Assembly: GCA_030248065.1 (NCBI GenBank)
Contig: JASAMV010001103.1
Coordinates: 1-64,000 of the forward strand
From: Rhynchonema sp. JSB1_4
Taxonomy: Eukaryota > Nematoda > Chromadorea > Monhysterida > Xyalidae
Length of the DNA stretch: 64,000 bases
Direction of reading: 5' to 3'
Numbering within the stretch: position 1 is the stretch's first letter; every line of letters starts with the position of its first letter. The translations under genes were made by a program, and so were the position numbers. Of this stretch, positions 2,601 through 48,241 are shown one piece after another. The notes under the pieces were generated by a model that saw only the letters and a program-made list of their open reading frames with translations, ran no database searches and was not told the DNA's origin.

Positions 2601-2605
2601 GATAG

Positions 2606-6015: not shown

Positions 6016-6178
6016 AACTTTTTTATTTTTCCTGTGTTATTTTTTTTTGAAAATGGGAAAACGTTGACGGCGCATGAAGTTTTACTTGTCTCTTTGTTTT
6101 GAAAATACAACGTGAATGTTTTTTCTCCAATTCGTTTTTATATTATAAACTGCAAAACCTCAACCGGCCTGTTAGCAG

Positions 6179-6436
6179 CGCTTTTTGGAGGTCAATTGGC
6201 CAGAGATCTTCGCACCGACGAGTCCTGGCACATCGCCCGTCCGTGAACACAGGCCGAAACGAGCGACGGGCGAAACTCATAAAAAATATGCTGTCATATC
6301 TCAGATTCGACCAGATAACGCGCATCATGCATCGCCAGGGGTCCAAGGGGACCCCGATTCGTCTCGAATTCAGCGGCAAAACATTGACCAAAATGATGAT
6401 GCAGCGGCAAATAGATCACGATGCACTGTTTTGTGA
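6179..6436 (+). pseudogene. Orphan copy of the SKP1-like terminal exon
   Basis: This is the left-arm copy of the exon at 45,845-46,102, which in the right arm follows SKP1 exon 4. It starts after TTAGCAG and reads in phase 0 from RFLEVNWPE to a TGA at 6,434. The spacing of E, W and E resembles the SKP1 C-terminal helix. Here the upstream SKP1 exons are missing, because the palindrome edge at 6,041 lies between this exon and where exon 4 would be, and satellite DNA takes their place. It is therefore probably a dead fragment. A second frame (open through 6,536) also spans it, so the frame choice is an inference. Confidence 0.45.
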
Positions 6437-6558
6437 TCAAATAATAACTACGCAGTCATGTGCTTTTGTGTCCCAGACGAAACAGCGGGTGACAAAACAG
6501 CGGTTTTCGAAAGGCAGCAGCCAACTACATAAATAGATATTTGCTGACGGCAGTGTAC

Positions 6559-6579
6559 GCCTAAGCCCAAGCCTAAGCC
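6559..6579. repeat. Interstitial telomere-like GCCTAA run
   Basis: GCCTAAGCCCAAGCCTAAGC is three near-copies of GCCTAA, the complement of the TTAGGC telomere repeat known from nematodes. The mirror copy lies at about 45,705-45,728. It is too short to be a telomere and may be an internal relic or a piece of a transposon. Confidence 0.5.
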
Positions 6580-6739
6580 GAATGACAAGGATAGTTTGCT
6601 TCCGTACCCAGTGTTTTGACACCCGGCTATTTTGTTCGTACCCCAGCGTTTCATACTATACAATACAGTAATTGGTATGTACTAGACGGGACCCGTGCCT
6701 ACGGCCCGGCTACAGCGCCGCGCCCGTGCCGTGCCTGGC

Positions 6740-7392
6740 CTGAGAAGGACGGAAGAAAAAAAGAGGAGGGGAGGTCAAGAAGTTGAAAATAATCTCAGTT
6801 CATTGAAATCAAATCAGTGAGAAAATGAAAAGCGAAATGGATGGAAAGGAAAAACGATGGAAGGAAAAAGAGGGTTAAAAGAAGAAGAGGAGTAAAGGAA
6901 AGAAAAGAGTGAAGCGTGGTGGAAAAGAAACGGAAGATAACAAAGGGGAAACGGAGTTAAAAATAGGAGGGGGAGAGTGGAAAATGGGCTTGAGAAAGGT
7001 GGGAGGGAAGGGAAAGAGGAGGGGAGGTCAAGAAGGGGGAAAGGGAATTGGAAAAAAGAAGGAAAGAGAAGAGAAAAGGGAAGGAAGGGGGAAACGGAGT
7101 TAAAAATAGGAGGGGGAGAGTGGAAAATGGGCTTGAGAAAGGTGGGAGGGAAGGGAAAGAGGAGGGGAGGTCAAGAAGGGGGAAAAGGGGAATTGGAAAA
7201 AAGAAGGAAAGAGAAGAGAAAAGGGAAGGAAGGGGAAAGGAAAGAAAAAAAGAGGGAGAGAAGGGAAAGAGAGGAGAGTGAAAATTGGAAAAAAGAAGGA
7301 AAGAGAAGAGAAAAGGGAAGGAAGGGGAAAGGAAAGAAAAAAGGAGGGAGGGAAGGGAAAGGGAGGAGAGTGAAAAGAGAGGGAGGGGGCCA
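6740..7392. repeat. Polypurine tract with about 140-bp tandem units
   Basis: About 650 bp almost entirely A and G on the plus strand. Inside it a unit containing GAAACGGAGTTAAAAATAGG recurs at about 6,949 and 7,091. The mirror polypyrimidine tract is at 44,890-45,540. Long frames on both strands here are low-complexity artefacts. Such tracts can form triplex DNA; that is general knowledge, not shown here. Confidence 0.9.
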
Positions 7393-8068
7393 CAGACAGA
7401 CATACATACGCCTTCCTGTTTTAGTAGTATAGATGTATACACTGTTTATGGATCAAGAAATGTGCTTGCTTTCAACTTCGGCCTTTTAATTATTGAACAT
7501 CATAACTGGTGTTCGAACAGGATTCCGGTCCCGACTTTGGCATCTCGATCCCGAGAGGCTTGTTGATCCGAATCCCGATCCTTTGAAAATAAAATCACGA
7601 GTCCCGAGAGCTCAGTTCCGTTCGACCCCTAAAAAACCATAGTCGGTGTACAACGGTTGGTTAGGTTAACCGTTATTGGAGAAAATGCATAATGTACCGA
7701 CGGTTTACGGATGGAATCAGATCGTCGCTCGTAAACCACAACGAACGTGATACATTTGTGATACCGTACTTTATTATGAAATAACAGAATGAAATTGGTT
7801 TTGGTTGGCAATACAAAATCGGGGCGATATTGCTGACACTAGGGATGTAAATTGTGAAATTATTTTCGCCAGTAGTGAACCATTGGCAGTTTCACTGATC
7901 ACGGTAGTTCGCACTGCAAACCTTTTGAGGTTTTACAGATTTTGCTTTTTCGCAACATTCAACCGTCATCATGTATCATCCCTTACACACCCTATCGGTT
8001 AGCTGGCCGGTGTTTTGTCGCATTTTGCTATTCAAATATTCCAAGTACGCATTTTTTAATTTTTTTAG
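7393..8068. other. Non-coding stretch between polypurine tract and membrane-protein exons
   Basis: No exon or named repeat was recognised. The segment is single-copy within each arm and mirrors 44,216-44,889. Earlier exons of the membrane-protein gene would be expected here or further out, but none could be supported. Confidence 0.4.
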
Positions 8069-9162
8069 ATTCTATTGACCTTGGTGCCCCTGCCTTCGCC
8101 CATCTGTGGGGATACACTGAGCGGGGACAGCGGATGCTTGACAGAGTTTGAGTGCAGCAAAACGTGTGAGAGCAGATGTTGGCATGTCGGTTAGCTGATG
8201 TTTCACTATCTTTGGTAGTGGCCATACCGATGCCACATTACGTACAGAAGGGCATGATAACAAGTGTTCACGCTATTTTGCACTCGTTGTCGTAGTGTGA
8301 CACTCATGATTACGGAGGCCAGGCAATGGTCTAACAAATATTTACAATATGCACGAACAGAAAATGCCTGCGGCGCAAGGCAAAAATTAAGGGCATCGTT
8401 TCATGACCTGAGCATATCATAGAAAAGCAGGTGAATGCTCCCCGGTCCCCGATATAGAGTAATGTGTCCTGAATTCCATCTTTATCTAGATGGTAACCAC
8501 AAAGGGGCCGACTGTATTTACATGTACATGCACTTACACTACAACAGACTTTGAAACACCACTGTTCCTTTGTCTGTCAGGCGAGGGCTGTTTCGAGTGT
8601 CATGGCACGCCAATCAGCAGTCTAACTTTGATCATCATTTGCGTCATCGGATTCGGATCACTTTTCTTCACGCTCTTTCTCATGTGCGCTCTTGAGGTTG
8701 GTGTACAATGACTGGCTGATGTTTCACTATCATATTACCAGTTTGTTCATTTTCACTTGATGGTTCATTTTCAAAAGCAGACTCAGAAGCTGGTGAGTGA
8801 GAATAAGCTTTTGTTATGCAACTGTACATATGTGATGCTCCTGGAGCATACTGTATTTCTCAGTTTAAGCCATCATAGTGGCTAAAGACCGGGACATTCT
8901 CATTGGCCATGTGAATGCATCCAGATGGTCACATCGTAAAAAAAATAGGAAATAATAATGCCTAACGAGCAAAAATATTTTGTGCCATGTCAAGGTGGTC
9001 AACCCCCGACCACGCCCGACCCCCCCAGGTGGGTGCCAGCAAAGTTCATACCCAGGCACATAATATGGCGTCTCACTGTAACATTCACCCTTTCAGGATT
9101 ACTGGCGTGAGCGGCAGCTGCGAAGGAAACGACTGGCCGATCAGAACAGAACAAAGGCGTGA
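8069..9162 (+). CDS. Cysteine-rich single-pass membrane protein, 3' exons (left copy)
   Basis: Three exons join in phase: 8,069-8,189, 8,581-8,696 and 9,097-9,162, with AG/GT borders. Together they encode about 99 residues and a TGA stop. The first gives a hydrophobic start and a cysteine-rich ectodomain (CGDTLSGDSGC...CSKTCESRCWHV). The second gives a short GEGCFECHG segment and then one transmembrane helix (TLIIICVIGFGSLFFTLFLM). The third gives a 21-residue highly basic cytoplasmic tail starting DYWRERQ. The right-arm copy (43,134-44,215) differs in the tail exon only at synonymous positions and has V to L in the first exon, which supports real coding. The family was not recognised. An N-terminal signal or earlier exons were not found, so the model is partial. 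Confidence 0.62.
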
Positions 9163-9687
9163 AACGGATTGTTATGAAAACGAAGAAAAAATAAGAAATT
9201 ATGAATAATTGTTATGGAATGTGCGCTCTTTTCAAGACGATCCATCATAGTCTACCACCCTCATCATTGTGGCTTTCTTCATAGTGATTGTGGATATGCT
9301 CCACAGGGACAGAAAATGTCATTTCCCGATCATTGAGAGAAGACTGTATATCTCAAGCTCACACAGCATTTTGACCGTCTTCCATGCATGTCAAAACTGA
9401 GTGACCATAGCCCAACGTGCCACTTTCAGTGTTCAGCAGAAAAAACTTATTTTAACGGGAGCGAATAAAGTTACTGAAAAGCAAAACTCAACGAAAAAAA
9501 GAGAGAAAATGAAGAGTACATAAACTCACTGAAAACGGATGAAAACGAAGTGCAGCAGTATAAATAGTGAGCGTCGTTTGGCGAGTACAGTACTCCGGCC
9601 ACATACATTCGCGAACCATCCTTGTATAAATACCTGAAGAATAAAATAAATAAATAATAAAAATCTGAAAATGGGAAAAAAAGTAAC
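9163..9687. other. Intergenic, no gene seen (left arm)
   Basis: The stretch separates the membrane-protein stop from the tRNA-Tyr terminator. It holds no recognised element and mirrors 42,610-43,133. Confidence 0.4.
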
Positions 9688-9773
9688 TCCTTCGAGCCGG
9701 ATTCGAACCAGCGACCTATGGATAACTGCGTCACCACTACAGTCCACCGCTCTACCAACTGAGCTATCGAAGG
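9688..9773 (-). tRNA. tRNA-Tyr (GTA) with 13-nt intron, left arm
   Basis: On the minus strand an 86-nt gene begins CCTTCGATAGCTCAGTTGG and ends GGCTCGAAGGA. The acceptor, D, anticodon and T stems all pair, with a GGTTCGAATCC B box. The anticodon loop reads CTGTAG, then the 13-nt intron TGGTGACGCAGTT, then A, placing the intron at the canonical site one base 3' of anticodon GTA. A T-run following the gene serves as the Pol III terminator. A TATAA-like motif (AATTATAAGAGCAC) lies about 30 bp upstream and is shared by all three copies. Confidence 0.95.
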
Positions 9774-10798
9774 GACACTCATGTTGCTAACGGAACGTGC
9801 TCTTATAATTGAGAAATGCTGCTTTTTCATAATGGAAAGTTTTGCGTTCGCTCTACTTTTTCCAGTTTTCACGAACGTTTTTGGGTACAGAAATACAGCA
9901 GCACCCCTGAGCAGCAAGTGAAAACACAGACACGCATTTGTACTCACTAAGCTGTTCACTGCGCGTTGCTTTGTGTTTGCATCACACAGGCGCTGCATGC
10001 AACAGTGGAAAAATTACCTGAAACCTGTTGTGCGCCCCTGAATTTCCAAGGCAGCGTCTCAAAGAGAGCATAAGGACATCAGAAGTACTGTACCTATACA
10101 TACATATAGCTATAGCATGTCGAAAAATGAGTAGGTTACCAGACCAATATACGAATTTTCATTGGGAGACATCGAAATTTTCTATTAGAGCTTTTATTAG
10201 AAGGGGACTTCAACGTTTTCAGGCGGTTTTTGACGCAAAAACAACCTTGTTCATTACAGTGGCAAGCGGGCTCCAAGATCAAAAAATCGCGGACACAGTC
10301 AAGAAATCAGTGCAGTTATACCCGAATCCCAACATAAAACCAACCAATCGTCTGATTCTCTACACGACATCAACCAATGACAATTGTGAGCGCACCCTGA
10401 ATCTTCAAGGGGATCGCAATGTGACATCAGCGTGAAATTCGGCGTCTCACCATACTGCACCTGCGCGGACACGAAAGCGTGTTGATACAATCTACCACCT
10501 TGCATACTGATATGAAACATTACTTGTTCGTCACCACATCACCACAGCGAAAATCAGTTAGGGTCAAGCCGCTAATTCTCCCGCTTCGACTATACCAAAG
10601 AAAATGCCATGTTCACTCGCGCTGCCACTTTTTGACCAGCATGAAAAAGTTGTTTCTTCTACAAGCTATACACCTGTCTAATAGCATTTTTTCATCGGCC
10701 CGACATCAGGCAATTCAAGTGCGCCGAGTCACGTGACAAAAGTGCGGCCTAGTTTGACGTCGCTTATGGTGACAATTACATATCGCAATGAATATGCA

Positions 10799-10914
10799 GG
10801 CTAATGCTGCAGTCGTGCACTCAAGTGGTCAACTGAAGCCAACTCAAGCAGGCCTATAAATGCGACCGCGACATATTTTATCGTACCTGGGAGTTGACCA
10901 CAGCACTGTAAGCC
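10799..10914. mobile_element. Core-family foldback MITE, divergent copy
   Basis: Ends GGCTAATGCTGC and GCACTGTAAGCC flank inverted arms around GTGGTCAACTGAAGCC / GGGAGTTGACCACAGC, with a diverged version of the family's GAGCGCGAGAAATAATACAT core. The mirror copy is at 41,345-41,468, so insertion preceded the arm duplication. Confidence 0.65.
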
Positions 10915-12141
10915 GAACTTAAGACCGTCTTCCGCCTTTACACCAGGCACCGAAAACAACGAGCTGGATACACCCATCATATGTCAAGTCACCAAAATTT
11001 TTAGATGGCCAACCTTTGATGTTGATTGCAGTTTCTGGCCCTTGGCACAGGTTCTTGCAACTTTATCAGCGGCGCGCACCTGCGCTGTCCAAAGCACACA
11101 AGGTAGAAATAATCGGTAGATAATGTCCAGCCACATTTTCTCTCCTAATTTTCGTTGATTGCCTGGTATCTTGTTGTTTTCTTGACAGCCGAATAAATCA
11201 CGAAATTTTGAATTGATTTATTTGTTCTTCCTAATGGCGCATGCCATTCAAAGGTCGAGAAATTGGTAGTTTACGCGCTGGCTATGGTGGTATTCCATTA
11301 TTTGCTTTTTTGCACATGCGAAATGTCACACACGTTGCGTGCTCGGGTCGTGTTAAAATGACAGCGTCATTTTTGGTCGTTTATTTGGGTGCGTATTGAA
11401 TAAATACTATTTTAATTCAAATAGTAGCAAACCACCAACGTTACGACATGTGTCTGAAATAATGAAATGGGTTAAAAAGGTTAGCGCGCGCCTTGTCTTT
11501 TCGCTTTTCTTTGCCCGTTTATGCCGGAGTTTTCCATTTTGAGCCGCTCCGCCAGAAATGGGCATTCCGGGGGCCGTTTCCCAAAAATCGTTTTCTCCAC
11601 ATGGGTTTTTTTCATTTTTTCTCAGCAAAAATAAATCTAAAATAGAACTACAATGCACGCATGGGTTTTAAATGTCATCAAGTGTCAAGAACGTTCGCTC
11701 AAAAATCCTTCCCAATAGAGCCCCTGGGGCTTCATATTGAAAACTCCGGTACGTCGCTGAAACAAACTGCAATCCAAAACCGACGTCAGGGTTACACAGG
11801 GAGGCAAACTGTCATGCCAGACAAGTGTGAAAACTCTTTCGAGTGTCGCTACACCTATGTATATATGATAAATGAGCACCGTTCACCATGACAGAAACGA
11901 CTACGACATGTAATTAGCAACAGTGCCAAACAAAATTTTACACGTATAGTTCAACCGATTGCTCATGAGACGACTTTTTTAAGTTGATTTGCTCAGATTT
12001 TGCTGCTCCTCCGCTGATCAATTCCCAGATAAAAAGACACGTGCAAAACCGTGTCGGAGCCAGTGAACAGTAACGAAAAAGCGTCTCATGAGCAATTAGG
12101 CGAACTATACAATGTGTATGCTTTGGGCGAAGTTCAGGCTT

Positions 12142-12335
12142 AGATACCTTTCTGATGGTAACCGTGCTGGTTGAACTTCGGCTAATAGCAGTGTCATCAA
12201 ATCATATGTATCATTTCTCGCGCGCATTTGGAGCTCACGCATTATGGCTTGATTTGATGACAAGTTATGACTACTTGATTTGACGGCAGTACTGTCAGCC
12301 GAAGTTCAACCAAGACGGTTACCATCAGTAAGGTA
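12142..12335. mobile_element. Foldback element containing a core-family MITE
   Basis: Outer inverted repeats ACCTTTCTGATGGTAACCG and CGGTTACCATCAGTAAGGT enclose a core-family MITE (12,180-12,300). The inner core reads ATCATTTCTCGCGCGCATTT. Both inner and outer inverted repeats are seen again at about 39,160-39,367 in the right arm. Confidence 0.7.
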
Positions 12336-14703: not shown

Positions 14704-24329
<9,626 letters not shown>

Positions 24330-26200
24330 CTGCAATAGAGAGTCGATATTTTGAAAAATTTTATTGTGGACACATAACACATGTTGTATTATACGTATTT
24401 GTTGTGCGTGGTAAAGGATATGTAGACAGACACTAAATTACACTGGCGGACGGTTTTTTATATTTCTGAAAAAACCCGGAAAAAAACCGAACAAAACAAC
24501 GAAAAAAACCGATAAATAACCGCAGTGTATAAGGATAGGGGAAGCCCAAATAAGGTATTTTTGACACATAGTAATGTTAGCACAGCACTCAGTGGTCCTA
24601 TGGGTGTTTTTGATGCTTGTTGTAACTAAAACTTGCAAGCCACATACATGCCCCGCTTGGCTAAAGTTGTTCTGAACAAAAATATTTCCCAACTTCAGTC
24701 AAAAATTGGAAAATTTCGTGAAAAAAGACCTGTTTCCCGGAGGCTGAGGTTTTTTCGCCTTTTTTTCGTCCCAGATGGCACGGTTTTTTCGTGAAAAAAA
24801 ACAGTTTTTTTCCATCCGCCAGCATAACTATATATTTGGAAAAGAAAAGAAACCTTTTCACCGGGCTCCCACAATACCTCCGACTGGAGTAGTTCTGATT
24901 TCCCCGGGATCTCACACACCCAAAGCAATAGAACATTATATAGTTGCGAACAACCGGTTGTTTATATTTTGTGGAAAAAACCCGAAAAAATTCCAGAGTA
25001 TAAATTTCCAGTCAGGGTATCAAATAACAGGTGGTGAAACTACAGGTACAGGGTATTTTACCCTAAAACTGATGTGAACCTGGTGCAAACACTATGTTAC
25101 TTCCCGGAAAAAACGTTTTTTTTTCGAAAAATTTTTTTTTACCGAAGCCCGGAAAAATACGTTTTTAGTTTTCCAAGTGGCAACTTTTGGAAAAAACCGG
25201 TTTTTTCCAAAAATTTCCGAGATACTTTCAAAGCTTGCGAAAGGATGTTGTCAAAACTAATGTAAATCGGTGCTAAACAGTTCAAAATGACCTTCGGAAA
25301 AAAACCGTTTTTTTCCACGAAAAATAAAAAACGGTTCTTTATGACAGTATAGGTACAGTAGGTTGCCGCCCCGCCTGGGTAGCTACACCACTGCATGCTG
25401 GTACAGTAGGTAGGTCACCGCCGGGCGGCTGGTACAGTAAGTTGTGATTTTTGGCTCAAAATGGTATAAAATCGGTAGTTTTCAATCAAAATAGGCGAAA
25501 ATAGCGCGCATCGCGCGAAATTAGTGTTTTAGAGAACATTTTCATCAATATTTAGACCTAAAAATTTTTGTTCCCCCCTAGCTCGGCCGGTACAGTAGGT
25601 AGGTTGCCGCCCCACATTTTTGGTGGTACAGTAGGTTGCCGCCCTGCCTGGGCAGCTACTACACCACTGTAGTGGCTGGGGGGATGGGGGGTGGATAAGG
25701 GGTATCTATCTCGAGTCAACCCTTAGGGGGGAGGATGGGGGGAAGGGTATCTATCTCGAGCCGACCCCAAAGGGTATCTCGAGTAAGTAGATTTATGGTT
25801 TTCAAAGGCAAAAATAGGTGTTTTTCGAACTCGGGACCCCCCAAAAATCGCGCGAAACACCCAAAAATGGTCATTTAAGGCCAATTTTCGGCAAAAATGT
25901 CAAAAAATTGCATGCGAAAAACGGCCTTTTTTCGCCTTTTGACGGACCATAGGGGTATCTTGGGTAGCCTCTGGGGGTATCTCGAGTAAGTGCGAAACCT
26001 TCCCCCCCTAGGGTATCTTGGGTCGATTGGCCTGCCACCACACTGTAGACTGTACCAGTGCTGTGGCTGGGGGGGGGGGGGGGGGCGCCCCCCAATGGTA
26101 CCTACCCGCCCCGGCTTGGTACGCTACCCCCCTACCCGCCCCTCTGACCCTACCCCCCTCCCGCCCCGCCCTGTACCCTACCCGCCCCATTTTTTACCCC
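24330..26200. other. 5' flank of left mannosidase, GC-skewed low-complexity repeats
   Basis: No gene is seen. The outer half is rich in short hairpins of the form GGAAAAAACCGGTTTTTTCC. The inner half is GC-rich with repeated GGTACAGTAGGTAGGTTGCC motifs, GGGTATCTCGAG repeats, and CAGTGGTGTAGC-type ends typical of the local hAT elements. It mirrors 27,240-29,191 with many small indels. Confidence 0.6.
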
Positions 26201-27239
26201 AAAACAATGGTGTAGCTGGGGAGGGGTGGGGGGTCCCCCAAGCAGTAGGTAGGTTGCCGCCCCTCGCCTGGTACAGTAGGTAGGTTCCGCCCCTCCCCTG
26301 GTGCAGTAGGAGTTCCGCCCCACCTAACTTTTCACCAAAACATTCATTTTTGGCTTAAAATTGCATAAAATTAGCATATTTGTCTGTAAATAGGCGAAAT
26401 CGCGCGCTGCGCGCGAAATTAGTGTTTTAGGCCACATTTTCTTCAGTATTTAGACATAAAAAATTTCGGTTTCCAGATGACCCCCCAAGTGGACGACCCC
26501 CCCAGCTCGCTGGTACAGTAGGTAGGTTCCGCCCCGCATTTTGGGTGGACAGTAGGTTGCCGCCCCACCTGGTAGCTACACCATGCCCAAATGCCCATTT
26601 TTCGGTCAAAAATGCCCAATTTCGACTAAACCCTAAAGGCAAAAAATCTCGCGCCGCGCGCGATATATGCACTTTTTAGACATAAAAACACACCGAAAAA
26701 CTTTGTTGTACCCTACCCGCCCCGAAAAATCTTCCCCCCTCCCCCCCCAAACCGCATTTCCCCTCCCCCCAAAATCCCAGGTACACTACCCCCCTACCCG
26801 CCCCGATTTTTTCCACGTACGTACCCTACCCCCCCGCAAGAGCCACACACTCACTGTACTACACTCTGGTTCGTTAGAGATCAATTATAAGATTGGAATC
26901 AGCATTGGCGCGGCCGGGCCCACCTCGGCAGCGGCCGGCACCCTTTGGCTCTGCGGTCGATCGAAATTAAACCCTAAACAAATTGAGCCGTGTTCTGTGA
27001 ACAGGTTTCTTGAGATCATGCAGTGTCGTTGGCAATATCGGCCCCGACTGTCGGTCATGCGGCCAGAGAACCATTTTGGTGAAGTAAGGCGATTGGTCAA
27101 ATGCAAATCAATGGAGATTCAGAAGAGCGGAAATAAAATTTGCCAGGGGAAGGGGAAGATCATCGGTCGTCGACCTTGTTTTCTGAGTTTCAAGTTTCAA
27201 GTTCGATTGAATCAAAGTCGAAAAAGGGCAAAAGTTTTG
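26201..27239. other. Palindrome spacer (axis), about 1 kb
   Basis: This is the only part of the 40-kb structure without an inverted partner. Its ends are GC-rich with TACCCGCCCC and GTAGGTAGGTTCCGCCCC repeats. The middle (about 26,870-27,230) is ordinary single-copy DNA with no recognisable exon. The two mannosidase copies read away from it, so promoter elements may lie here or in the inner arms, but none is identifiable. Confidence 0.7.
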
Positions 27240-29191
27240 GGGGTAAAAATCGGGGCGGGTAGGGTACCAGGGCGGGGCGGGTGTGGGGGGGTAGGGTACC
27301 AGAGCGGGGCGGGTAGGGGGGTAGCGTACCAGGCCGGGGCGGGTACGGTACCATTGGGGGGGGGGGACCCCCACCCCCCCAGCCACAGCACTGGTACCGC
27401 CAGTGTGGTGGCAGGCCAATCGACCCAAGATACCCTAGGGGGGAAGGTTTCGGACTTACTCGAGATACCCCCAGAGGCTACCCAAGATACCCCTATGGTC
27501 CGTCAAAAGGCGAAAAAAGGCCGTTTTTCGCATGCAATTTTACTGCAAAATTGGCCTAAAAACGGGTATTTTTTGACATTTTTGCCGAAAATTGGCCTTA
27601 AATGACCATTTTTGGGTGTTTCGCGCGATTTTTGGGGGGTCCCGAGGTCGAAAAACACCTATTTTTGCCTTTGAAAACCATAAATCTACTTACTCGAGAT
27701 ACCCTTTGGGGTCGGCTCGAGATAGATACCCTTCCCCCATCCTCCCCCCTAAGGGTTGACTGGAGATAGATACCCCTTATCCACCCCCCATCCCCCCAGC
27801 CACTACAGTGGTGTAGTAGCTGCCCAGGCAGGGCGCCAACCTACTGTACCACCAAAAATGTGGGGCGGCAACCTACCTACTGTACCGGCCGAGCTAGGGG
27901 GGAACAAAAATTTTTAGGTCTAAATATTGATGAAAATGTTCTCTAAAACACTAATTTCGCGCGATGCGCGCTATTTTTCGACTATTTGGATTGAAAACTA
28001 CCGATTTTATACCATTTTGAGCCAAAAATCACAACTTACTGTACCAGCCGCCCGGCGGTGACCTACCTACTGTACCAGCATGCAGTGGTGTAGCTACCCA
28101 GGCGGGGCGGCAACCTACTGTACCTATACTGTCATAAAGAACCGTTTTTTATTTTTCGTGAAAAAAAACGGTTTTTTTCCGAAGGTCATTTTGAACTGTT
28201 TAGCACCGATTTACATTAATTTTGACAACATCCTTTCGCAAGCTTTGAAAGTATCTCGGAAATTTTTGGAAAAAACCGGTTTTTTTCCAAAAGTTGCCAC
28301 TTGGAAAACTAAAAACGTATTTTTCCGGGCTTCGGTAAAAAAATTTTTTTCGAAAAAAAAAACGTTTGTTCCGGCCCGCAAGTACACATAGTGTCTTTGC
28401 ACCAGGCTTCACGTCAGTTTTTAGGGTCAAAATACCCAGTACCTGTTAGTTTCACCACCTGTTATTTGATACCCTGTACTGGAAATTTATACTCTGGAAT
28501 TTTTTCGGGTTTTTTTCCACAAAATATAAACAACCGGTTGTTTCGCAACTATATAATGTTCTATTGCTTTGGGTGTGTGAGATCCCGGGCGAAATTACAG
28601 AACATTACATTCCAGTCCGGCAGGTCATTGTGTCAGGGCCAGCCCGGTTGACAAAGGTTTCTTTTCTTTTCCAAATATATAGTGTATGCTGGCGGATGGA
28701 AAAAAACTGTTTTTTTTCACGAAAAAACCGGGTCCATCTGGGACGTGAAAAAAAGGCGAAAAAACCTCAGCCTCCGGGAAACATCGGTCTTTTTTCACGA
28801 AATTTTCCAATTTTTGACTGAAGTTGGGAAATATTTTTGTTCAGAACAACTTTAGCCAAGCGCGGGCAATGTCAATGTGGCTTGTTTCAAGTATTTTAGT
28901 TACAACAAGCATCAAAAACACCCATAGGCACCACTGTAGTGTCTGTGCTAACATTATTATGTGTCAAAAAATACCTTATTTGGGCTTCCCCTATCCTTAT
29001 ACACTGCGGTTATTTATCGGTTTTTTTTCGTTGTTTTGTTCGGTTTTTTTCCGGGTTTTTTCACGAAATATAAAAAACCGGTTTTCCGCCAGTGTAATTT
29101 AGTGTCTGTCTACATATCCTTTGCCACGCACAACTGTTACGTGTTATGTGTCCACAATAAAATTTTTCAAAATATCGACTCTCTATTGCAG
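27240..29191. other. 5' flank of right mannosidase
   Basis: Mirror of 24,330-26,200: GC-rich repeats near the axis and GGAAAAAACCGG-type hairpins nearer the gene. A first exon supplying the mannosidase start codon should lie in this stretch or be fused to exon 1, whose frame stays open upstream of 29,192. No start could be chosen with confidence. Confidence 0.5.
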
Positions 29192-36574
<7,383 letters not shown>

Positions 36575-36641
36575 AACATCGACCAGCTGGATGAATGTGT
36601 GCACTGGTTTGGTCGAATTTTTGTATTGAGCTACAGTATGT

Positions 36642-36831
36642 AAAGGCAAACTACGCCAACACGAGCCCGATTTCGGAGGTGGTAGATTAGTGAAACATTC
36701 ACACGTGGCTGCTGATTTGGGAAACGTTACACGTTGTGGAATACAACGTGGTGCATGAGGATTTCTCTTTCTTTGCGTTTCGCTAGTGCACCAACTCCGA
36801 AATCGGGCTCGTGTTTGCGTAGTTTGCCTTT
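36642..36831. mobile_element. CCGATTTCGGA foldback element, right-only copy with ATGT duplication
   Basis: Ends AAAGGCAAACTACGCCAACA and GCGTAGTTTGCCTTT are flanked by ATGT on both sides. The left arm keeps the empty site (CAGTATGTTGG read on the minus strand near 14,637). It lies about 70 bp beyond the mannosidase stop codon. Confidence 0.85.
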
Positions 36832-37828
36832 ATGTTGGAATGGCGACTCAGCACAGGGTACTGGTTTGAAACCGGTTCAGAATGGGTTAGAGCGGGAAAT
36901 GTTTGCAACATCCGATTGCCTTGCGGACGTGGTTTGTGAATTAGAACGACCCTGAGTCAGCAAGCACGACGCATTCTAATTTGTTCAATGTCAGAATTCG
37001 ACTGACTTTAGATTGAATGGTATTGTCTTTCAGGTCTTTTTGGTGATATTTTAATATTTTGATGTGTGTGTGTGTTTGTCCGAAATATAGGTGTCATTAA
37101 TAAACTTCTCCTTTACTGCTTATGTTGTTCACTACATTTTCACGCAGTATTTATTGTTTTCTTCGAACTTGAATTTTTTCTCGTGTGATTTTTTCGGTGT
37201 TTGTGCCAAAACGTTTCTTTCCCCCAGCTGCTATACTCTGTGTTTTAACTCAGAGCAGCATGACAAAACCGGCCGCAAGCCATGAGATTATGCAGTAATT
37301 GTTGTTGTTGTTTTGGGCAAATTGTAAGCAGTTTTGACGTGACAGGAATGCTTAGTTTTTTGTTTGTTTGTTGTGCTTACATGTGAGTCGATTGGCTTGC
37401 ATAGCTGTGGTGTTGTTTGAATGATTTATGTATGAACCATGTCGGATAACTGTAATAATGCCTTTGTTGTGTGCATTTTGTGAGCGCACATTGTTTTATT
37501 TTGCACCTGCTTTGACTCCTGTGGTGCGTGGGTGAAACAGCGAGAGGAAAAACGGATTTTTTTGAAAACAGAGAACAGAACTTGTAGGCGTTTGGCGGAA
37601 CCACGTCCACATGATCTTATTGATGTGAAAAAGTTCAGGCTGGCGCACTGAAATTTCTGACTGCTGTTTCACCCGAGGCTGCTTCAGGCACACACAGGAG
37701 GATGTGGGTGGGACTTCTGTTGTATTATATATTAGCAGCTGAGCTCCTGCTATTTTCGACTTTTCATCCCTGTAGATAAGATGCGGAAATATTTTATTTT
37801 TTTTGTGCTTGCCTGTCGTGCATATTTG

Positions 37829-37950
37829 GGCTGTCGTCAAATACAGTCAAATCTTTTCCCAAATTAAGCAATAATACATGAGCCCTGAACGAGCGCGAGA
37901 AATACTACATGTGATTTGACGACTTGATTTGTCCACCGCACTATAAGACC
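37829..37950. mobile_element. Core-family foldback MITE
   Basis: GGCTGTCGTCAAATACAG begins and GTCCACCGCACTATAAGACC ends the element; the core reads AACGAGCGCGAGAAATACTA. Mirror of 13,535-13,658. Confidence 0.7.
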
Positions 37951-39159
37951 ATACTTGTTTGTTGTGCTTTTCTGTGTTTCCGTTTCCTGTTTTCTCTATT
38001 TTTGTTCCTCTGTATTTCTGGTATCTTGTGGTCAACTAGTCGGGCTTTCAAGCGTTTTCTGCTTGATTTTGGGGTTTATCATTTTGGCATTAGACATTCC
38101 AGGTTTAAAATGCGATTAAGTATGAAGAATTGTTGAATTGTGCAATGTAGTACACATTTAAAATATATGTAAATGGGATCAACAAGCGTAAATATATTTA
38201 TTATTATTATTTATTATATATATTTATATTTCTGCTGAAAAAATGAAGTGCATACATAGTTGTGGTCACACTAGTAGGAGCACATTCTCAAAGATGTGTT
38301 TTTCGCCTTCAGACGCTTTTGATTATCAATACACACTTAAACGTGTATGAGTAACTTGACCTTCAAAAAGGCGCGCAAACCAGAAAGCCAGACTGCAGCG
38401 CCAGACATTTAGAGCTGTAATGTGGTGTGTAATGACAATAAACTTGTTAGTTCCTCCTATATTTCTCACACCACTATAACACCCGTACTTAGAAGCAGGT
38501 TTCTTCCAAAAGAGCATTCTTATTTCGTTTCTTCACAAAATTACTTGTTATTCGGCGTGTAATTCCTACCGCGTTTTTTATTTAATGACAGTGCCGCATG
38601 CACGTATGGGTGATAAAAACTGAATTTTTGCAAAAAATACGACCACAACACAACCCGTCTGTAGTTTTCTGACCCGGCACTTTGCATTTTCGATAGCAAC
38701 GATAGAACATCGAAATAGCGCAATTACTCACGGTATGGTTTTAAATACATTTTTAAACACGATGTCAGTTGTGCGTTGCTTACGCATTTTAACTGGGAAG
38801 TGAGAAAAGTTTTGCTTTCTTTGTTGTGAACTTAGAATGTTGCAATATTTTAATTTATTGCTTCAACCAGTTTGAAATCAGTATCAAACACCAATATGCC
38901 TGCAATGCAATCGCATTTGTATATATTTGGTGAAACATCAGCAGTCAGTGCGTGACACGATACGCAAACGCAGCTAGGTCACCTATACCTTACGTTACGG
39001 TACCTCAGGTCACACAACTGCGTAAAAACAAGTTTATTGCTATTCGTTTGCGTGTTCTGGGCTCGCCTTTCGTTCCCACGTTAGCTCACGCGCACTCCAA
39101 GCAAGGTTTTGTTGTGTAATGGGGTACATACATGTACATATGTTTTCATTTTTTGGCTT

Positions 39160-39367
39160 TCTACCTTACTGATGGTAACCGTGCTGGTTGAACTTCGGCT
39201 GACAGTACTGCCGTCAAATCAAGTAGTCGTAACTTTGTCATCAAATCAAGCCATAATGCGTGAGCTCCAAATGCGCACGAGAAATAATACATGTGACTTG
39301 AATACTTGATTTAACGACCGGGCTATTAGCCGAAGTTCAACCAGCACGGTTACCATCAGAAAGGTAT
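39160..39367. mobile_element. Foldback element containing a core-family MITE (right)
   Basis: Outer arms ACCTTACTGATGGTAACCG and CGGTTACCATCAGAAAGGT enclose the MITE 39,197-39,331, whose core AATGCGCACGAGAAATAATA precedes CATG. Mirror of 12,142-12,335. Confidence 0.7.
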
Positions 39368-39559
39368 CTAAGCCTGAACTTCGCCCAAAGCATACACATT
39401 GTATAGTTCGCCTAATTGCTCATGAGACGCTTTTTCGTTACTGTTCACTGGCTCCGACATGGTTTTGCACGTGTCTTTTTATCTGGGAATTGATCAGCGG
39501 AGGAGCAGCAAAATCTGAGCAAATCAACTTAAAAAAGTCTCATGAGCAATCGGTTGAAC

Positions 39560-40265
39560 CAGTGGTTTTTAAAAAAAAATTTTTTTTTATTAAAAAAATT
39601 TTAAAAAAAATTCGTTTGAAAAGTTAAAAAAATTTTTTTTTTACTATTTCAAAAATCGAAAATTTCTCTATTTTTTGCTCTAAAAGTGCTATTTTTGCAT
39701 AAAAATTGCTACTGTTGACATCACCTAACCCTACCATGGGTGTATTGGGTGCCATAATCGTTGTTTTGTGGCATCTAGACATAGTGCGCACACTCACAGG
39801 GCCTCTCATATGACCACACACGTACATGTGACTGGGTGGGCATTTATTTATCCATGCCCCAGACCCGCAAGGAGTGATTTTATTTTGTATTCACTGTAAT
39901 TTCACACTATGTGCAGCTTATTTGCATTGGTCGTGTTACCTAGACGTCATAATTTCACCCAAAATTCCCATCCCGAATATCAGAAAGCCATACCATCACA
40001 CCCGCACCACCTGGGGTAGGGTACGGGTGTGTACCTGACTATGGTTGGTACTTATCGACCATTGGATAGCATGGTTTTCGTATCACCTGTGCTTTGTATG
40101 CACTTAGAACACATTATGTAACAAAAGTACCCGTATTTTGTACTTGAGCGCTCATTTTTTATCGTGTTGGGCAGATTTTGGCTGGAATAAAAAAAAAATT
40201 TTAATTAAAAAAATTTTTTTTTTAAAAATGGGGTTCGAATAAAAAAATTTTCTTATTAACCACTG
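39560..40265. mobile_element. hAT-like non-autonomous element, right arm only, 8-bp TSD
   Basis: A 706-bp insertion flanked by GGTTGAAC on both sides (39,552-39,559 and 40,266-40,273). The ends are CAGTGGTTTTTAAAAA and TTATTAACCACTG, followed inward by A/T blocks. The left arm keeps the empty site (one GGTTGAAC on the minus strand near 11,955). An 8-bp duplication with CAGTGG ends is typical of hAT transposons. No transposase frame. Confidence 0.9.
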
Positions 40266-41344
40266 GGTTGAACTATACGTGTAAAATTTTGTTTGGCACT
40301 GTTGCTAATTACATGTCGTAGTCGTTTCTGTCATGGTGAACGGTGCTCATTTACCATAGGTGTAGCGACACTCGAAAGAGTTTTCACACTTGTCTGGCAT
40401 GACAGTTTGCCTCCCTGTGTAACCCTGACGTCGGTTTTGGATTGCAGTTTGTTTCAGCGACGTACCGGAGTTTTCAATATGAAGCCCCAGGGGCTCTATT
40501 GGGAAGGATTTTTGAGCGAACGTTCTTGACACTTGATGACATTTAAAACCCATGCGTGCATTGTAGTTCTATTTTAGATTTATTTTTGCTGAGAAAAAAT
40601 GAAAAAAAACCCATGTGGAGAAAACGATTTTTGGGAAACGGCCCCCGGAATGCCCATTTCTGGCGAAGCGGCTCAAAATGGAAAACTCCGGCATAAACGG
40701 GCAAAGAAAAGCGAAAAGACAAGGCGCGCGCTAACCTTTTTAACCCATTTCATTATTTCAGACACATGTCGTAACGTTGGTGGTTTGCTACTATTTGAAT
40801 TAAAATAGTATTTATTCAATACGCACCCAAATAAACGACCAAAAATGACGCTGTCATTTTAACACGACCCGAGCACGCAACGTGTGTGACATTTCGCATG
40901 TGCAAAAAAGCAAATAATGGAATACCACCATAGCCAGCGCGTAAACTACAAATTTCTCGACCTTTGAATGGCATGCGCCATTAGGAAGAACAAATAAATC
41001 AATTCAAAATTTCGTGATTTATTCGGCTGTCAAGAAAACAACAAGATACCAGGCAATCAACGAAAATTAGGAGAGAAAATGTGGCTGGACAATATCTACC
41101 GATTATTTCTACCTTGTGTGCTTTGGACAGCGCAGGTGCGCGCCGCTGATAAAGTTGCAAGAACCTGTGCCAAGGGCCAGAAACTGCAATCAACATCAAA
41201 GGTTGGCCATCTAAAAATTTTGGTGACTTGACATACATATGATGGGTGTATCCAGCTCGTTGTTTTCGGTGCCTGTTAGAGGCTTCATGAGTTCACATGA
41301 ACTCTGACTGGGTATGCGTAAAGGCGGAAGACGGTCTTAAGTTC

Positions 41345-41468
41345 GGCTTACAGTGCTGTGGTCAACTCCCGTCCCAGGTACGATAAAACATGTCGCGGCC
41401 GCATTTATAGGCATGCTTGAGTTGACGGCTTCAGTTGACCACTTGAGTGAACGACTGCAGCATTAGCC
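41345..41468. mobile_element. Core-family foldback MITE, divergent copy (right)
   Basis: Mirror of 10,799-10,914. Ends GGCTTACAGTGCTGTGGTCA and CAGCATTAGCC; the core is diverged (CGATAAAACATGTCGCGGCC). Confidence 0.65.
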
Positions 41469-42523
41469 TGTATATTCATTGCGATATGTATTTGTCACCA
41501 TAAGCGACGTCAAACTGGGCCATAATATTGTCACGTAACTCGGCACACTTGAATTGCCTGATGTCGGGCCGATGAAACAATGCTATTAGACAGGTGTATA
41601 CCTAGCTTGTAGAAGAAACAACTTTTTCGTGCTCGTCAAAAAATGGCAGCGCGAGTGAACGTCGTAGATTCACTTTGGTGTAATAGAAGCCGGAGAATTA
41701 GGCTTGACCCCAACTGAATTTTCGTTGTGGTGACGTGGTGACGAACAAGTGATGTTTCATACCAGTACGCAAGGTGGTAGATCAACAGTTCCGCTTGTAT
41801 CAAAACACTTTCGTGTCCGCGCAGGTGCAATATGGTGAGACGCCGAATTTCACGCTGATGTCACATTGCGATCCCCTTGAAGATTCAGGGTGCGCTCACA
41901 ATTGTCATTGGTTGATGTCGTGTAGAGAATCAGACGATTGGTTGGTTGTCTTATGTTGGGATTCGGGTATAACTGCACTGATTTCATGACTTTGTCCGCG
42001 ATTTTTTTATCTTGGACCGCGCTCGTTAGTGTAACGAACGCGGTTATTTTTCGTCAAACACAACCTGAAAACGTAGAGGTCCCCTTCTAATAGAAGCTCT
42101 GATAGAAAATTTCACTGTCTCCCAGTGAAAATTCGGCAGGTGCACATGTACGTACATTTGTATGGTAACCAACTCATTTTTCGACATGCTATAGCTGTGT
42201 ATGTATAGGTACTTCTGATGTCCTGAATGCTCTCTTTGAGACGCTGCCTTGGAAATTCAGGGGCGCACAATAGGTTTCAGGTAATATTTACACTGTTGCA
42301 TGCAGCGCTTGTGTAATGCAAAGGCAAAGCAACATGAAGTAAACAGCTTAGTGAGTACAGAAATGCGTGTCTGTGTTTTCATCTGCTCAGGGGTGCTGCT
42401 GTATTTCTGTACCCAAAAGCGTTCATGAAAACAGGAAAAAGTAGAGCGAACGCAAAACTTCCCATTATGAAAAAACAGCATTTCTCAATTATAAGAGCAC
42501 GTTCTGTTAGCAACGTGAGTGTC

Positions 42524-42609
42524 CCTTCGATAGCTCAGTTGGTAGAGCGGTGGACTGTAGTGGTGACGCAGTTATCCATAGGTCGCTGGTTCGAATCCGG
42601 CTCGAAGGA
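42524..42609 (+). tRNA. tRNA-Tyr (GTA) with 13-nt intron, right arm
   Basis: Identical in structure to the copy at 9,688-9,773. CCTTCGATAGCTCAGTTGG begins and GGCTCGAAGGA ends the gene. The intron TGGTGACGCAGTT follows CTGTAG, and a T7 run beginning at about 42,613 terminates it. The upstream box AATTATAAGAGCACGTTC is at 42,487-42,504. Confidence 0.95.
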
Positions 42610-43133
42610 TTACTTTTTTTCGCATTTTCAGATTTTTATTATTAATTTCTTTTTATTCTTCAGGTATTTATACAAGGATGGTTCGCGAATGTATGTGGCC
42701 GGAGTACTGTACTCGCCAAACGACGCTCACTATTTATACTGCTGCACTTCGTTTTCATCAGTTTTCAGTGAGTTTATGTACTCTTCATTTTCTCTTTTTT
42801 TTCGTTGAATTTTGCTTTTCAGTAACTTTATTCGCTCACGTTAAAATAAGTTTTTTCTGCTGAACACTGAAGTGGCACGTTGGGCTATGGTCACTCAGTT
42901 TTGACATGCATGGGAGAGGGTCAAAATGCTGTGTGAGCTTGAGATATACAGTCTTCTCTCAATGATCGGGAAATGGCATTTTCTGTCCCTGTGGAGCATA
43001 TCCACAATCACTATGAAGAAAGCCACAATGATGAGGGTGGTAGACTATGATGGATCGTCTTGAAAAAAGCGCACATTCCATAACAATTATTCACAATTTC
43101 TCATTTTTTCTTCGTGTTTCATAACAATTCGTG

Positions 43134-44215
43134 TCACGCCTTTGTTCTATTCTGATCAGCCAGTCGTTTCCTTCGCAGTTGCCGCTCACGCCAGTAATCC
43201 TGAAAGGGTGAATGTTACAGTGAGACGCTATTATGCGGCTGAGTATGAACTTTGCTGGCACCCACCCACCTGGGGGTCGGGTGTGGTCGTGGGTTGACCA
43301 CTTGACATGGCACAAAATATTTTTGCTCGTTAGGCATTATTATTTCTTATTTTTTTAAGATGTGACCATCTGGATGCATTCATATGGTCAATGAGAATGT
43401 CCCGGTCTTTAGCCACTATGATGGCCTAAACTGAGAAATACAGTACGCTCCAGGAGCATCACACAGTTGCATCACAAAAGCTTATTCTCACTCGCCAGCT
43501 TCTGAGTCAGCTTTTGAAAATGAACCATCAAGTGAAAATGAACAAACTGGTAATGTGATAGTCTAACATCAGCCAGTCATCATCGTACACCAACCTCAAG
43601 AGCGCACATGAGAAAGAGCGTGAAGAAAAGTGATCCGAATCCGATGACGCAAATGATGATCAAAGTTAGACTGCTGATTGGCGTCCCATGACACTCGAAA
43701 CAGCCCTCGCCTGACAGACAAAGGAACAGTGATGTTTCAAAGTCTGTTGCAATGTAAGCGCATGTACATGTAAATACAGTCGGCCCCTTTGTGGTCACCA
43801 TCTAGATAAAGATGGAATTCAGAACACATTACTCTATATCGGGGAGCATTCACCTGCTTTTCTATGATATGCTCAGGTCATGAAACGATGCCCTTAATTT
43901 TTGCCTTGCGCCGCAGGCGTTTTCTGTTCGTGCATATTGTAAATATTTGTTAGACCACTGCCTGGCCTCCATAATCATGAGTGTCACACTGCTACAACGA
44001 GTGCAAAATAGCGTGAACACTTGTTATCATGCCCTTCTGTACGTAATGTGGCATCGGTATGGCCACTACCAAAGATAGTGAAACATCAGCTAACCGACAT
44101 GCCAACATCTGCTCTCACACGTTTTGCTGCACTCAAACTCTGTCAAGCATCCACTGTCCCCGCTCAGTGTATCCCCACAGATGGGCGAAGGCAGGGGCAG
44201 CAAGGTCAATAGAAT
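43134..44215 (-). CDS. Cysteine-rich single-pass membrane protein, 3' exons (right copy)
   Basis: Mirror copy of the left-arm gene. Minus-strand exons: 44,095-44,215, 43,595-43,710 and 43,134-43,199 (TGA). Phases and lengths are identical. Against the left copy the tail exon differs only synonymously (Q, A and N codons) and exon 1 has a conservative Leu for Val. The protein has a cysteine-rich outer part, a helix (TLIIICVIGFGSLFFTLFLM) and a basic tail DYWRERQLRRKRLADQ. It lies tail-to-tail with the mannosidase, with tRNA-Tyr between them. Function unknown. The SKP1-like terminal exon upstream (45,854-46,102) ends at a phase-0 GT that could join exon 1 of this gene, so read-through splicing between the two cannot be excluded. 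Confidence 0.62.
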
Positions 44216-45844
44216 CTAAAAAAAATTAAAAAATGCGTACTTGGAATATTTGAATAGCAAAATGCGACGAAACACCGGCCAGCTAACCGATAGGGTGTGT
44301 AAGGGATGATACATGATGACGGTTGAATGTTGCGAAAAAGCAAAATCTGTAAAACCTCAAAGGTTTGCAGTGTGAACTACCGTGATCAGTGAAACTGCCA
44401 ATGGTTCACCACTGGCGAAAATAATTACACAATTTACATCCCTAGTGTCAGCCATATCGCCCCGATTTTGTATTGCCAACCAAAACCAATTTCATTCTGT
44501 TATTTCATAATAAAGTACGGTATCACAAATGTACCACGTTCGTTGTGGTTTACGAGCGACGATCTGATTCCATATCCGTAAACCGTCGGTACATTATGCA
44601 TTTTCTCCAATAACGGTTAACCTAACCAACCGTTGTACACCGAATATGGTTTTTTAGGGGTCGAACGGAACTGAGCTCTCGGGACTCGTGATTTTATTTT
44701 TAAAGGATCGGGATTCGGATCAACAAGCCTCTCGGGATCGAGATGCCAAAGTCGGGACCGGAATCCTGTTCGAACACCAGTTATGATGTTCAATAATTAA
44801 AAGGCCGAAGTTGAAAGCAAGCACATTTCTTGATCCATAAACAGTGTATACATCTATACTACTAAAACAGGAAGGCGTATGTATGTCTGTCTGTGGCCCC
44901 CTCCCTCTCTTTTCACTCTCCTCTCTTTCCCTTCCCTCCCTCCTTTTTTCTTTCCTTTCCCCTTCCTTCCCTTTTCTCTTCTCTTTCCTTCTTTTTTCCA
45001 ATTTTCACTCTCCTCTCTTTCCCTTCTCTCCCTCCTTTTTTCTTTCCTTTCCCCTTCCTTCCCTTTTCTCTTCTCTTTCCTTCTTTTTTTCCAATTCCCC
45101 TTTTCCCCTTCTTGACCTCCCCTCCTCTTTCCCTTCCCTGCCACCTTTCTCAAGCCCATTTTCCACTCTCCCCCTCCTATTTTTAACTCCGTTTCCCCCT
45201 TCCTTCCCTTTTCTCTTCTCTTTCCTTCTTTTTTCCAATTCCCTTTCCCCCCTTCTTGACCTCCCCTCCTCTTTCCCTTCCCTCCCACCTTTCTCAAGCC
45301 CATTTTCCACTCTCCCCCTCCTATTTTTAACTCCGTTTCCCCTTTGTTATCTTCCGTTTCTTTTCCACCACGCTTCACTCTTTTCTTTCCTTTACTCCTC
45401 TTCTTCTTTTAACCCTCTTTTTCCTTCCATCGTTTTTCCTTTCCATCCATTTCGCTTTTCATTTTCTCACTGATTTGATTTCAAGAACTGAGATTATTTC
45501 AACTTCTTGACCTCCCCTCCTCTTTTTTTCTTCCGTCCTTCTCAGGCCAGGCACGGCACGGGCGCGGCGCTGTAGCCGGGCCGTAGGCACGGGTCCCGTC
45601 TAGTACATACCAATTACTGTATTGTATAGTATGAAACGCTGGGGTACGAACAAAATAGCCGGGTGTCAAAACACTGGGTACGGAAGCAAACTATCCTTGT
45701 CATTCGGCTTAGGCTTGGGCTTAGGCGTACACTGCCGTCAGCAAATATCTATTTAGTTGGCTGCTGCCTTTCGAAAACCGCTGTTTTGTCACCCGCTGTT
45801 TCGTCTGGGACACAAAAGCACATGACTGCGTAGTTATTATTTGA
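44216..45844. other. Gene-free stretch with mirror polypyrimidine tract
   Basis: Contains the polypyrimidine counterpart (44,890-45,540) of the left polypurine tract and the mirrored TTAGGC-like run (about 45,705-45,728). Nothing else is recognised. Confidence 0.7.
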
Positions 45845-47878
45845 TCACAAAACAGTGCATCGTGATCTATTTGCCGCTGCATCATCATTCTGGTCAATGT
45901 TTTGCCGCTGAATTCGAGACGAATCGGGGTCCCCTTGGACCCCTGGCGATGCATGATGCGCGTTATCTGGTCGAATCTGAGATATGACAGGATATTTTTT
46001 ATGAGTTTCGCCCGTCGCTCGTTTCGGCCTGTGTTCACGGACGGGCGATGTGCCAGGACTCGTCGGTGCGAAGATCTCTGGCCAATTGACCTCCAAAAAG
46101 CGCTGCTAACAGGCCGGTTGAGGTTTTGCAGTTTATAATATAAAAACGAATTGGAGAAAAAACATTCACGTTGTATTTTCAAAACAAAGAGACAAGTAAA
46201 ACTTCATGCGCCGTCAACGTTTTCCCATTTTCAAAAAAAAAATTAAGGGGTTTCGTTTTCAGCAACAACGTTGATGATAACAAACTACAGTACCTGTTCC
46301 TGTTCTTCTGGTGAAATTGGGTGTCGATGTTGAACATCCGCCTGATTTCACCCGGTGTTTTGCCCTTGATTAAATCGGCGACCTTTTTGCAGGACACGTC
46401 CAGGAGACCCTTGATGTCCAGATAATTGGCTGCCTGTAACCAATGTGTAGAACGATGGCTAACGGTACATAAGTTGTCAACTCAAGCATCCCTAAATGAG
46501 CGCCAGAAACTTACACATGCGGCTGTTGACGGCAAGAGTTGACGATTTGAGTTGATGACAGTGCTATAAGCCAAATAGACTAGTACGGCTGGGCTCGGTC
46601 ACGGCAACCCTTTATGTTCTGGACACCGTTGAAGGCACAACACACACATACACGAAAGAAACGGTTCACAAGAATTGTTTCCATACCGAGCGGTGGGGCC
46701 ACACGGGCGTCATATGCGCTAACGCTTGAATTGGCCCGTCTGCCATCCCGTCAGCTCAAAAATGCAAAAGCTCGACTTCGAAATATAAAAAAAACGTAAA
46801 CGTGATCGAACCAGTATCAGATGGAACAATGTTTCCTTATCGACGTTGAGAAATTCCATGTCCCATGGGTCCACATGTTCCGCAGTTGATTTCTCTCTAT
46901 TGTCATCCACAGCGAGTGGCGGAGGATCGTTTCTGTGGTGTTCCCACCACTCAATCACCTAAAATGCACGCTAATTGTATTGTAGTCCACGGATATCCGC
47001 GCATATTTCCTGCTTACGCGCTGCTGTGCAACGGTGTTCTGTGCAGGCGACCACAAACAACCCGCTGACGCAACTATAACGAAATACGTACATATGCTAT
47101 ATATACATAGGCGTATGTTCACATTGTGTAGACTACATTAGAGTAAGCCAAAATTCAGCCGACGGACATTACTGATTTTCACACCCCCATTACCCTCGCT
47201 TTTGTGTTTTCTGAGTTTCCTTGGATCTCAGTTTTTAGTTTTACTGTTATTTATACTGACACCAGCATCAGTGCAACGTCACGACACCATTGCAAGCACC
47301 AGTTTGGTTCACAAAAAAATTAAGTTTAGGCAGGGGAATAAAAAATAATGCGCAAAAAGGTCTTGGATCAGCCTCTTTGTATCCGCAAGACTGGACAACT
47401 TTTATTATCATCACGCGCTGAGATTTCACTCACTTTGCCGCTGACATTACAGTGGCCAACTAAAGTGGTCAAATCACTTCGTCAACTAACAGCAGCTACG
47501 ACAAATAATATATGGCATTCTGGGGTGGTCGACGACTCTTACAAAGTAAGTTGACGAAGTGATTTGACCACTGTAGTATGTATAAGCCCACCTTGCGCAA
47601 AATTTTCCCCTCGACTTTCAGTAACGGAATGGGCTCAGTGATTCGCGGTAGATTGTCTGAAACTAAGAAATGTCACTTAGCATAGGTGGTTAAAACTGGT
47701 TACGTTGAGAAACAAGAATAACTAAAACCAAATAAGTTACACATGTCATCATTGCATGTGGGTGAATGTTGCATACGATAAAACGTACATAACAGCAACC
47801 TGGCTGAGGCAAAATCGCATTTGACATCTTGATCACATCGTAGTCAACTTCGAAGATTTCATTGTCGGAGCTCATGAG
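45845..47878 (-). CDS. SKP1: SKP1-like SCF ubiquitin-ligase adaptor, partial model
   Basis: SKP1 links cullin-1 to F-box proteins (family knowledge). Minus-strand exons: 47,800-47,878 ([12 protein letters not shown]...), 47,592-47,656 ([19 protein letters not shown]), 46,812-46,958 ([14 protein letters not shown]...WDMEFLNVD), 46,294-46,433 ([36 protein letters not shown]). Phases join. The probable last exon, 45,845-46,102, starts RFLEVNWPE and runs to TGA with an unusual polar tail of about 75 residues. Two oddities: the expected ...SPEEQEQ end of exon 4 is reached only by assuming one missing T near 46,315, and the first few N-terminal residues need a further exon not found. As written, the shifted frame also enters an open frame in the last exon. 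A degraded copy or a sequencing indel are both possible. MITEs sit in introns 2 and 3. Confidence 0.8.
46457..46572. mobile_element. Core-family foldback MITE in SKP1-like intron 3
   Basis: GGCTAACGGTACATAAGTTG begins and GACAGTGCTATAAGCC ends the element, with inverted GTCAACTCAAGC / GTTGACGATTTGAGTTG arms and core AATGAGCGCCAGAAACTTAC. It starts about 23 bp upstream of the exon 4 acceptor. Confidence 0.75.
47441..47588. mobile_element. Core-family foldback MITE at SKP1-like intron 2 donor
   Basis: Arms TACAGTGGCCAACTAAAGTG and GATTTGACCACTGTAGTATG flank a diverged core. The end TATAAGCC overlaps the intron start: it lies within a few bases of the exon 2 donor GTGGGC (read on the minus strand). 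Confidence 0.75.
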
Positions 47879-48233: not shown

Positions 48234-48241
48234 CATTAGTG

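Follow-up and report, generated by a model that had tools for sequence, protein, structure and literature searches.

A 40-kb palindrome in an assembly of the nematode Rhynchonema sp. probably joins two haplotypes of one locus head to head

Is a 40-kb palindrome in the assembled genome of a small nematode a feature of its chromosomes or a product of the way in which the assembly was made? The question is raised by the first 64,000 bases (the window) of contig JASAMV010001103.1, here C694 (79,282 bp), from the assembly of Rhynchonema sp. JSB1_4 (GCA_030248065.1; 203.9 Mb in 5,747 contigs). When the window is compared with its own reverse complement by blastn and the halves are aligned with MAFFT, a collinear inverted chain runs from 6040/46241 to 26205/27234. 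The left arm (6040-26205, 20,166 bp), the inverted copy, carries exons E2-E14 of MAN1B1, a mannosidase gene, on the minus strand, and the right arm (27234-46241, 19,008 bp) carries E2-E14 on the plus strand. Between them lies a spacer of 1,028 bp (26206-27233), repeat-like and GC-rich in its left part and continuous with the right-arm gene in its right part. The palindrome of 20-kb arms and 1-kb spacer described in a prior sequence-only reading is thus present, with coordinates correct to within 6 bases. That reading had left two explanations standing, haplotypes joined head to head or a real palindrome with gene conversion between its arms; the former is supported and the latter is not. The palindrome very probably represents two haplotypes of one nematode locus joined head to head, an artefact rather than a real feature of the genome.

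The arms are similar and clearly distinct. They differ by 380 substitutions over 17,590 aligned columns (2.2%), and mismatch ranges from 0.2% to 10.2% per full 500-column window in a cruder MAFFT alignment, the top windows of which partly reflect gap placement. Among six arm-private stretches examined, four have terminal inverted repeats, and in three of these four a flanking duplication can be seen by eye, which bears out the expectation of arm-specific transposons with empty sites. Two of the insertions are found in the left arm only, at 15947-17083 (terminal inverted repeats of 42 bp) and at 19405-20001 (terminal inverted repeats of about 100 bp, flanking repeat CGCAAGCAAG). Two are found in the right arm only, at 36642-36830 (terminal inverted repeats of 56 bp, flanking TATGT) and at 39560-40265, which we take to be hAT-like and which has an 8-bp flanking duplication, GGTTGAAC, and the termini CAGTGG/CCACTG. 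Because the arms carry private insertions and 2.2% substitutions, they are two separate sequences, as had been proposed, and a single molecule or read folded back on itself is ruled out; chance is likewise ruled out.

The gene within the arms provides further evidence. The right copy (29192-36574, plus strand) comprises 12 coding pieces (E2-E14, with no E4) separated by GT-AG introns, with an open frame to the stop. The left copy (14704-24329, minus strand) retains intact frames and splice sites in all ten of its exons E5-E14, while E2 and E3 are damaged by a patch of short deletions considered below. Spliced from the right arm, the protein scores 531.6 bits against human endoplasmic reticulum (ER) mannosidase (1x9d, E=2.4e-158), aligned to residues 85-535, as compared with 324.7 bits against Golgi IA (1nxc) and 94.4 against EDEM1 (8zpw). 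By these scores the gene is MAN1B1, an ER class I alpha-1,2-mannosidase of family GH47, nearer to ER mannosidase I than to Golgi IA or EDEM. With the gene in both arms and its catalytic domain aligned to 1x9d, nothing about it is unusual for MAN1B1 or GH47. The named entries in the first 55 protein-search matches are nematodes, and in a 31-row tree the MAN1B1 of the window clusters with 21 nematode sequences and away from those of 9 other animals (support 100/100), which supports membership in the nematodes but no particular place among them.

What the left copy lacks is a beginning. In the gene model, a candidate exon 1 of 22 codons (27018-27083, plus strand) has a GT donor and is in frame with the right-arm E2. 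The stretch that includes it, 26860-27240, matched once in the 204-Mb assembly, and a search with this stretch turned up no further exon 1. Since the spacer is the sole location of the candidate exon 1, which reads in frame into the right copy, the left MAN1B1 is headless as assembled. Over the 1,373 coding bases of E5-E14, the two copies nevertheless differ by 21 silent and only 6 replacement changes, that is, by 6.9% of silent and 0.6% of replacement sites, a ratio of replacement to silent divergence (dN/dS) of 0.083. Arithmetic from the observed silent divergence gives about 39 replacement changes as the expectation had the left copy been headless since a duplication. From this pattern, both copies appear to have evolved as working genes under purifying selection, as is expected of alleles, and the two proteins are alike because of that selection. 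A very recent in vivo joining of two old alleles may also fit two working copies. When 30129-36574 is compared with the left copy, the noncoding stretches that separate the exons differ by 2.7%, far less than the silent sites (6.9%).

How might such a structure have arisen? We infer that the two arms are allelic and meet at a false junction, most likely at 26205/26206, and that this junction was made by amplification, the assembly presumably having been derived from amplified DNA. During whole-genome amplification or library preparation, a strand would fold back to give an inverted chimeric molecule consisting of arm, loop, and reverse arm, in which the locus would be linked to its own reverse complement; the assembler would then lay the other haplotype along the reverse arm. 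Such mixing of haplotypes by the assembler is needed in addition because the arms differ by 2.2% and by transposon insertions. The spacer would be what really lies upstream in the right haplotype, contiguous with one arm only. Three parts of the anatomy expected of a head-to-head misjoin are found here: distinct arms, two copies that evolved as working genes despite truncation of one, and recurrence elsewhere in the assembly.

Inverted chimeras in long reads are a documented product of whole-genome amplification of small samples (PMC6218980, PMC13265396). Palindromes occurred in 40-50% of reads in amplified Arabidopsis sets, and an amplified gorilla Y assembly contained numerous inverted duplications; once the reads had been corrected, no more were detectable in the contigs that were compared (PMC6218980). 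Palindromic reads often made up more than one third of mitochondrial reads in amplified tardigrades (PMC13265396), and ligation-based nanopore libraries also yield inverted-repeat chimeras (PMC13141652). The present case resembles the amplification chimeras in consisting of inverted duplications of a local region that recur across a data set (PMC6218980), but in those the two halves map to one locus, whereas here the arms differ by 2.2% and by transposon insertions.

Signs of unfinished sequence are present close to the junction. Between 24083 and 25197, in a patch that the prior reading had not mentioned, the left arm lacks 125 bases that the right arm has, in 80 short deletions. Only 4 deletions go in the opposite direction, and these cluster at 24385-24400. 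In the rest of the arms, deletions of at most 6 bases number 103 and 82 in the two directions. Pyrimidines account for 95 of the 125 deleted bases on the sense strand of the gene (p=4e-8), and the patch damages E2 and E3 of the left MAN1B1 copy only. It is apparently unpolished, uncorrected single-read sequence near the junction. A biological burst of deletions in the left arm was judged unlikely because only one arm is affected, one strand is favoured, and a gene otherwise under selection would be broken.

The C694 locus is not special, since other contigs of the assembly are also palindromic. The assembly was searched in three batches with probes of 140-281 bp drawn from 36 further contigs; these contigs were picked by number, via a repeat search, or (C2212) for a Skp1 gene, and do not constitute a strict random sample. 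An inverted copy on the same contig at 98-100% identity was found for three of the 36, C1000, C3523, and C4381 (the latter two at 98-99%, by probe only), and C5500 proved to be a fourth palindromic contig by sequence. As each probe samples one spot, four of 36 is a minimum. A copy at 92-100% identity on another contig was found for 10 of the 36, in one of these over 98 bp only. In the first batch (nine segments from seven contigs), one contig in seven, C1000, had a same-contig inverted copy, the C5500 probe having fallen in its spacer; copies of at least 92% on another contig were found for four of the seven (C4600, C1900, C2800, and C5500) among the best 40 of 339 candidates, although both C2800 probes also touch a dispersed repeat. 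The second (12 probes, 12 contigs; all 23 candidates scored) yielded inverted copies in two and a 97% copy on another contig in one (98 bp), with others at 84-91%. In the third batch (17 probes, 17 contigs), 98-100% copies on other contigs were found for at least 5 of the 17: C3633, C1730, C4813, C247, and C1116 (three, perhaps a repeat). Aligned pairs of contigs were 97.9-99.6% identical (C1900/C2033, C4600/C2921, C4600/C3762), while C5500 and C119 were 75-89% identical in pieces.

In about 170 kb of sequence from other contigs, self-inverted matches of at least 400 bp occurred only in C1000 and C5500. Five further 6-kb contig starts held short inverted pairs in C1200 (508 bp, 94%) and C3900 (487 bp, 84%), and two loci of C4218 have about 0.8 kb in common, inverted; these pairs may be repeats and were left out of the palindrome count. 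The right arm of C1000 ends at the final base of its contig, and the left arm of C5500 begins at base 1 of its own. C1000 (13,888 bp) contains several nested inverted matches around tandem repeats, which appear to be like the multi-inversion structures of amplified DNA. In C5500, the 860-bp spacer holds the mature-domain exon of a gene that we take from its motifs to be BMP-like, and this exon continues the prodomain exons of the right arm. No last exon of this gene was recognised on reading C5500, and C119, a non-palindromic homolog, carries the last exon downstream. In both palindromes read for genes, C694 and C5500, only one arm has the spacer as its continuation, and a gene is broken off at the turn-back. 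A smaller cluster of short deletions, about 12 within 180 columns, is found in one C5500 arm comparison near its inner-to-outer end.

Several observations weigh against a misjoin. Exon 1 and the two probed flank pieces each turned up only once in the assembly, so that the other haplotype would be missing there. The satellite that bounds the left arm at 6040 requires either that the haplotypes really differ at this point or that another false join was made. The third batch of probes returned no inverted copy in any of its 17 contigs among the best 40 of 435 candidates, a search in which misses are possible, as many of the scored candidates came from one repeat probe (C3562, not counted as a copy). 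As a control C119 is imperfect, since in pieces it matches C5500 at just 75-89% and could be a paralog. As for copy number, assembly searches found two full copies each of arm segments 29705-32894 and 6040-6850, both on C694, and, if short dispersed repeats are set aside, a single copy of each flank piece (46242-48250 and 71450-74000). These counts do not decide the matter because the same ones would be obtained if a real palindrome had been collapsed in the assembly. A 17.8-kb right-flank query matched repeats only, its own locus not being returned, and says nothing on copy number.

A real inverted segmental duplication, the strongest of the alternatives, is unlikely. A 20-kb piece would have been cut in MAN1B1 intron 1 and beside the Skp1-like gene that adjoins the right arm, and copied in reverse beside the original, with later drift and gain of private transposons. 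The geometry is suitable, in that the inner end of the left copy falls within the gene, whereas the gene of the right copy runs on into the spacer. The left part of the spacer and the arms also share related inverted repeats that could prime template switching in vivo, and two arm copies with one flank copy are equally what a collapsed real palindrome would give. However, a headless left copy should have decayed, and instead dN/dS is 0.08 and frames are intact in 10 of 10 exons from E5 to E14; moreover, palindromes recur in unrelated contigs.

That recurrence, with at least four of 36 other contigs palindromic and functional copies in both arms here, would suit a genome in which many loci really exist as head-to-head pairs of diverged functional copies, an arrangement that is nonetheless quite improbable. 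The blastn self-comparison places the two presumably allelic blocks in reverse order on one contig, although this is order on a contig and not physical linkage. In the 2013 assembly of Adineta vaga, single scaffolds were reported to carry homologous blocks in reverse order, an arrangement also present on this contig, and this was read as evidence of ameiotic evolution (PMC5916493); those blocks hold several genes each, whereas one complete gene is recognised here. Such reverse-order blocks did not turn up in A. ricciae (PMC5916493), and misassembly is a danger pointed out in a survey of parthenogens, which notes that palindrome lists include misassembled cases (PMC7953838). In a tunicate chromosome assembly, by comparison, palindromes were judged real by the authors after depth checks (PMC12448946). 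Against real allelic palindromes in Rhynchonema stands also the junction itself, which interrupts a gene in both palindromes read for genes.

Arms kept alike by gene conversion from arm to arm, as on mammalian Y chromosomes, can be set aside with near certainty, for although identity is patchy along the arms, patchiness is usual between haplotypes too, private insertions persist in both arms, and silent sites differ by 6.9%, above the surrounding introns. Palindromes of primate Y chromosomes have large arms, a short unique spacer, and very high arm identity maintained by gene conversion; large arms and a short spacer are found here as well, but with 97.8% arm identity and private transposons. 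The arms are not homogenised well above ordinary divergence (2.2% substitutions, dS 6.9%, private insertions in both), and the earlier suggestion that conversion kept the exons alike fails in that silent sites are 6.9% apart, above the 2.7% of noncoding sequence between exons. Gene conversion is therefore ruled out as the cause of exon similarity.

Other features of the window lie around or within the palindrome. Just outside the right arm, two exons of a Skp1-like gene (46304-46960, minus strand) show by eye a one-base loss of frame, and no last exon of this gene was recognised inside the arm with a short motif list. An assembly search for Skp1 (PF01466) found two loci, that of the window at 46304-46960 (34/48 positions) and C2212:136841 (41/48). 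Outside the left arm, where C694 begins, a satellite of 139-bp and 99-bp units occupies 1-5845; its 139-bp and 99/198-bp arrays alternate twice, and 742-3130 recurs at 3130-5542 with 91% identity, which on this match is a tandem duplication inside the satellite. At 58308-60766, a stretch of 2,458 bp matches C4984:15768-18225 at 100% identity and has relatives on C5169 and C2574; it would represent either a repeat that was active recently or an artefact of copying. ARAGORN reports three 86-nt tRNA genes without isotype (anticodon gtag), at 9688-9773 (minus), 42524-42609 (plus), and 58085-58170 (plus), which are possibly tRNA-Tyr genes with an intron; two lie in the arms, and the third has about 150 bp in common with them at 96-97%.

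The palindrome of C694 is mainly a caution for assemblies of small animals, in which palindromes have been used to argue for gene conversion or for evolution without meiosis. The signs of a likely artefact are a gene that is cut by the junction and under selection in both copies, a spacer continuous with one arm only, sequence close to the junction that looks unpolished, and further palindromes in unrelated contigs. Gene and duplication counts taken from this assembly are probably inflated. Were the palindromes instead real, Rhynchonema would have a genome of allelic palindromes, without ordinary meiotic pairing, and that would be remarkable.

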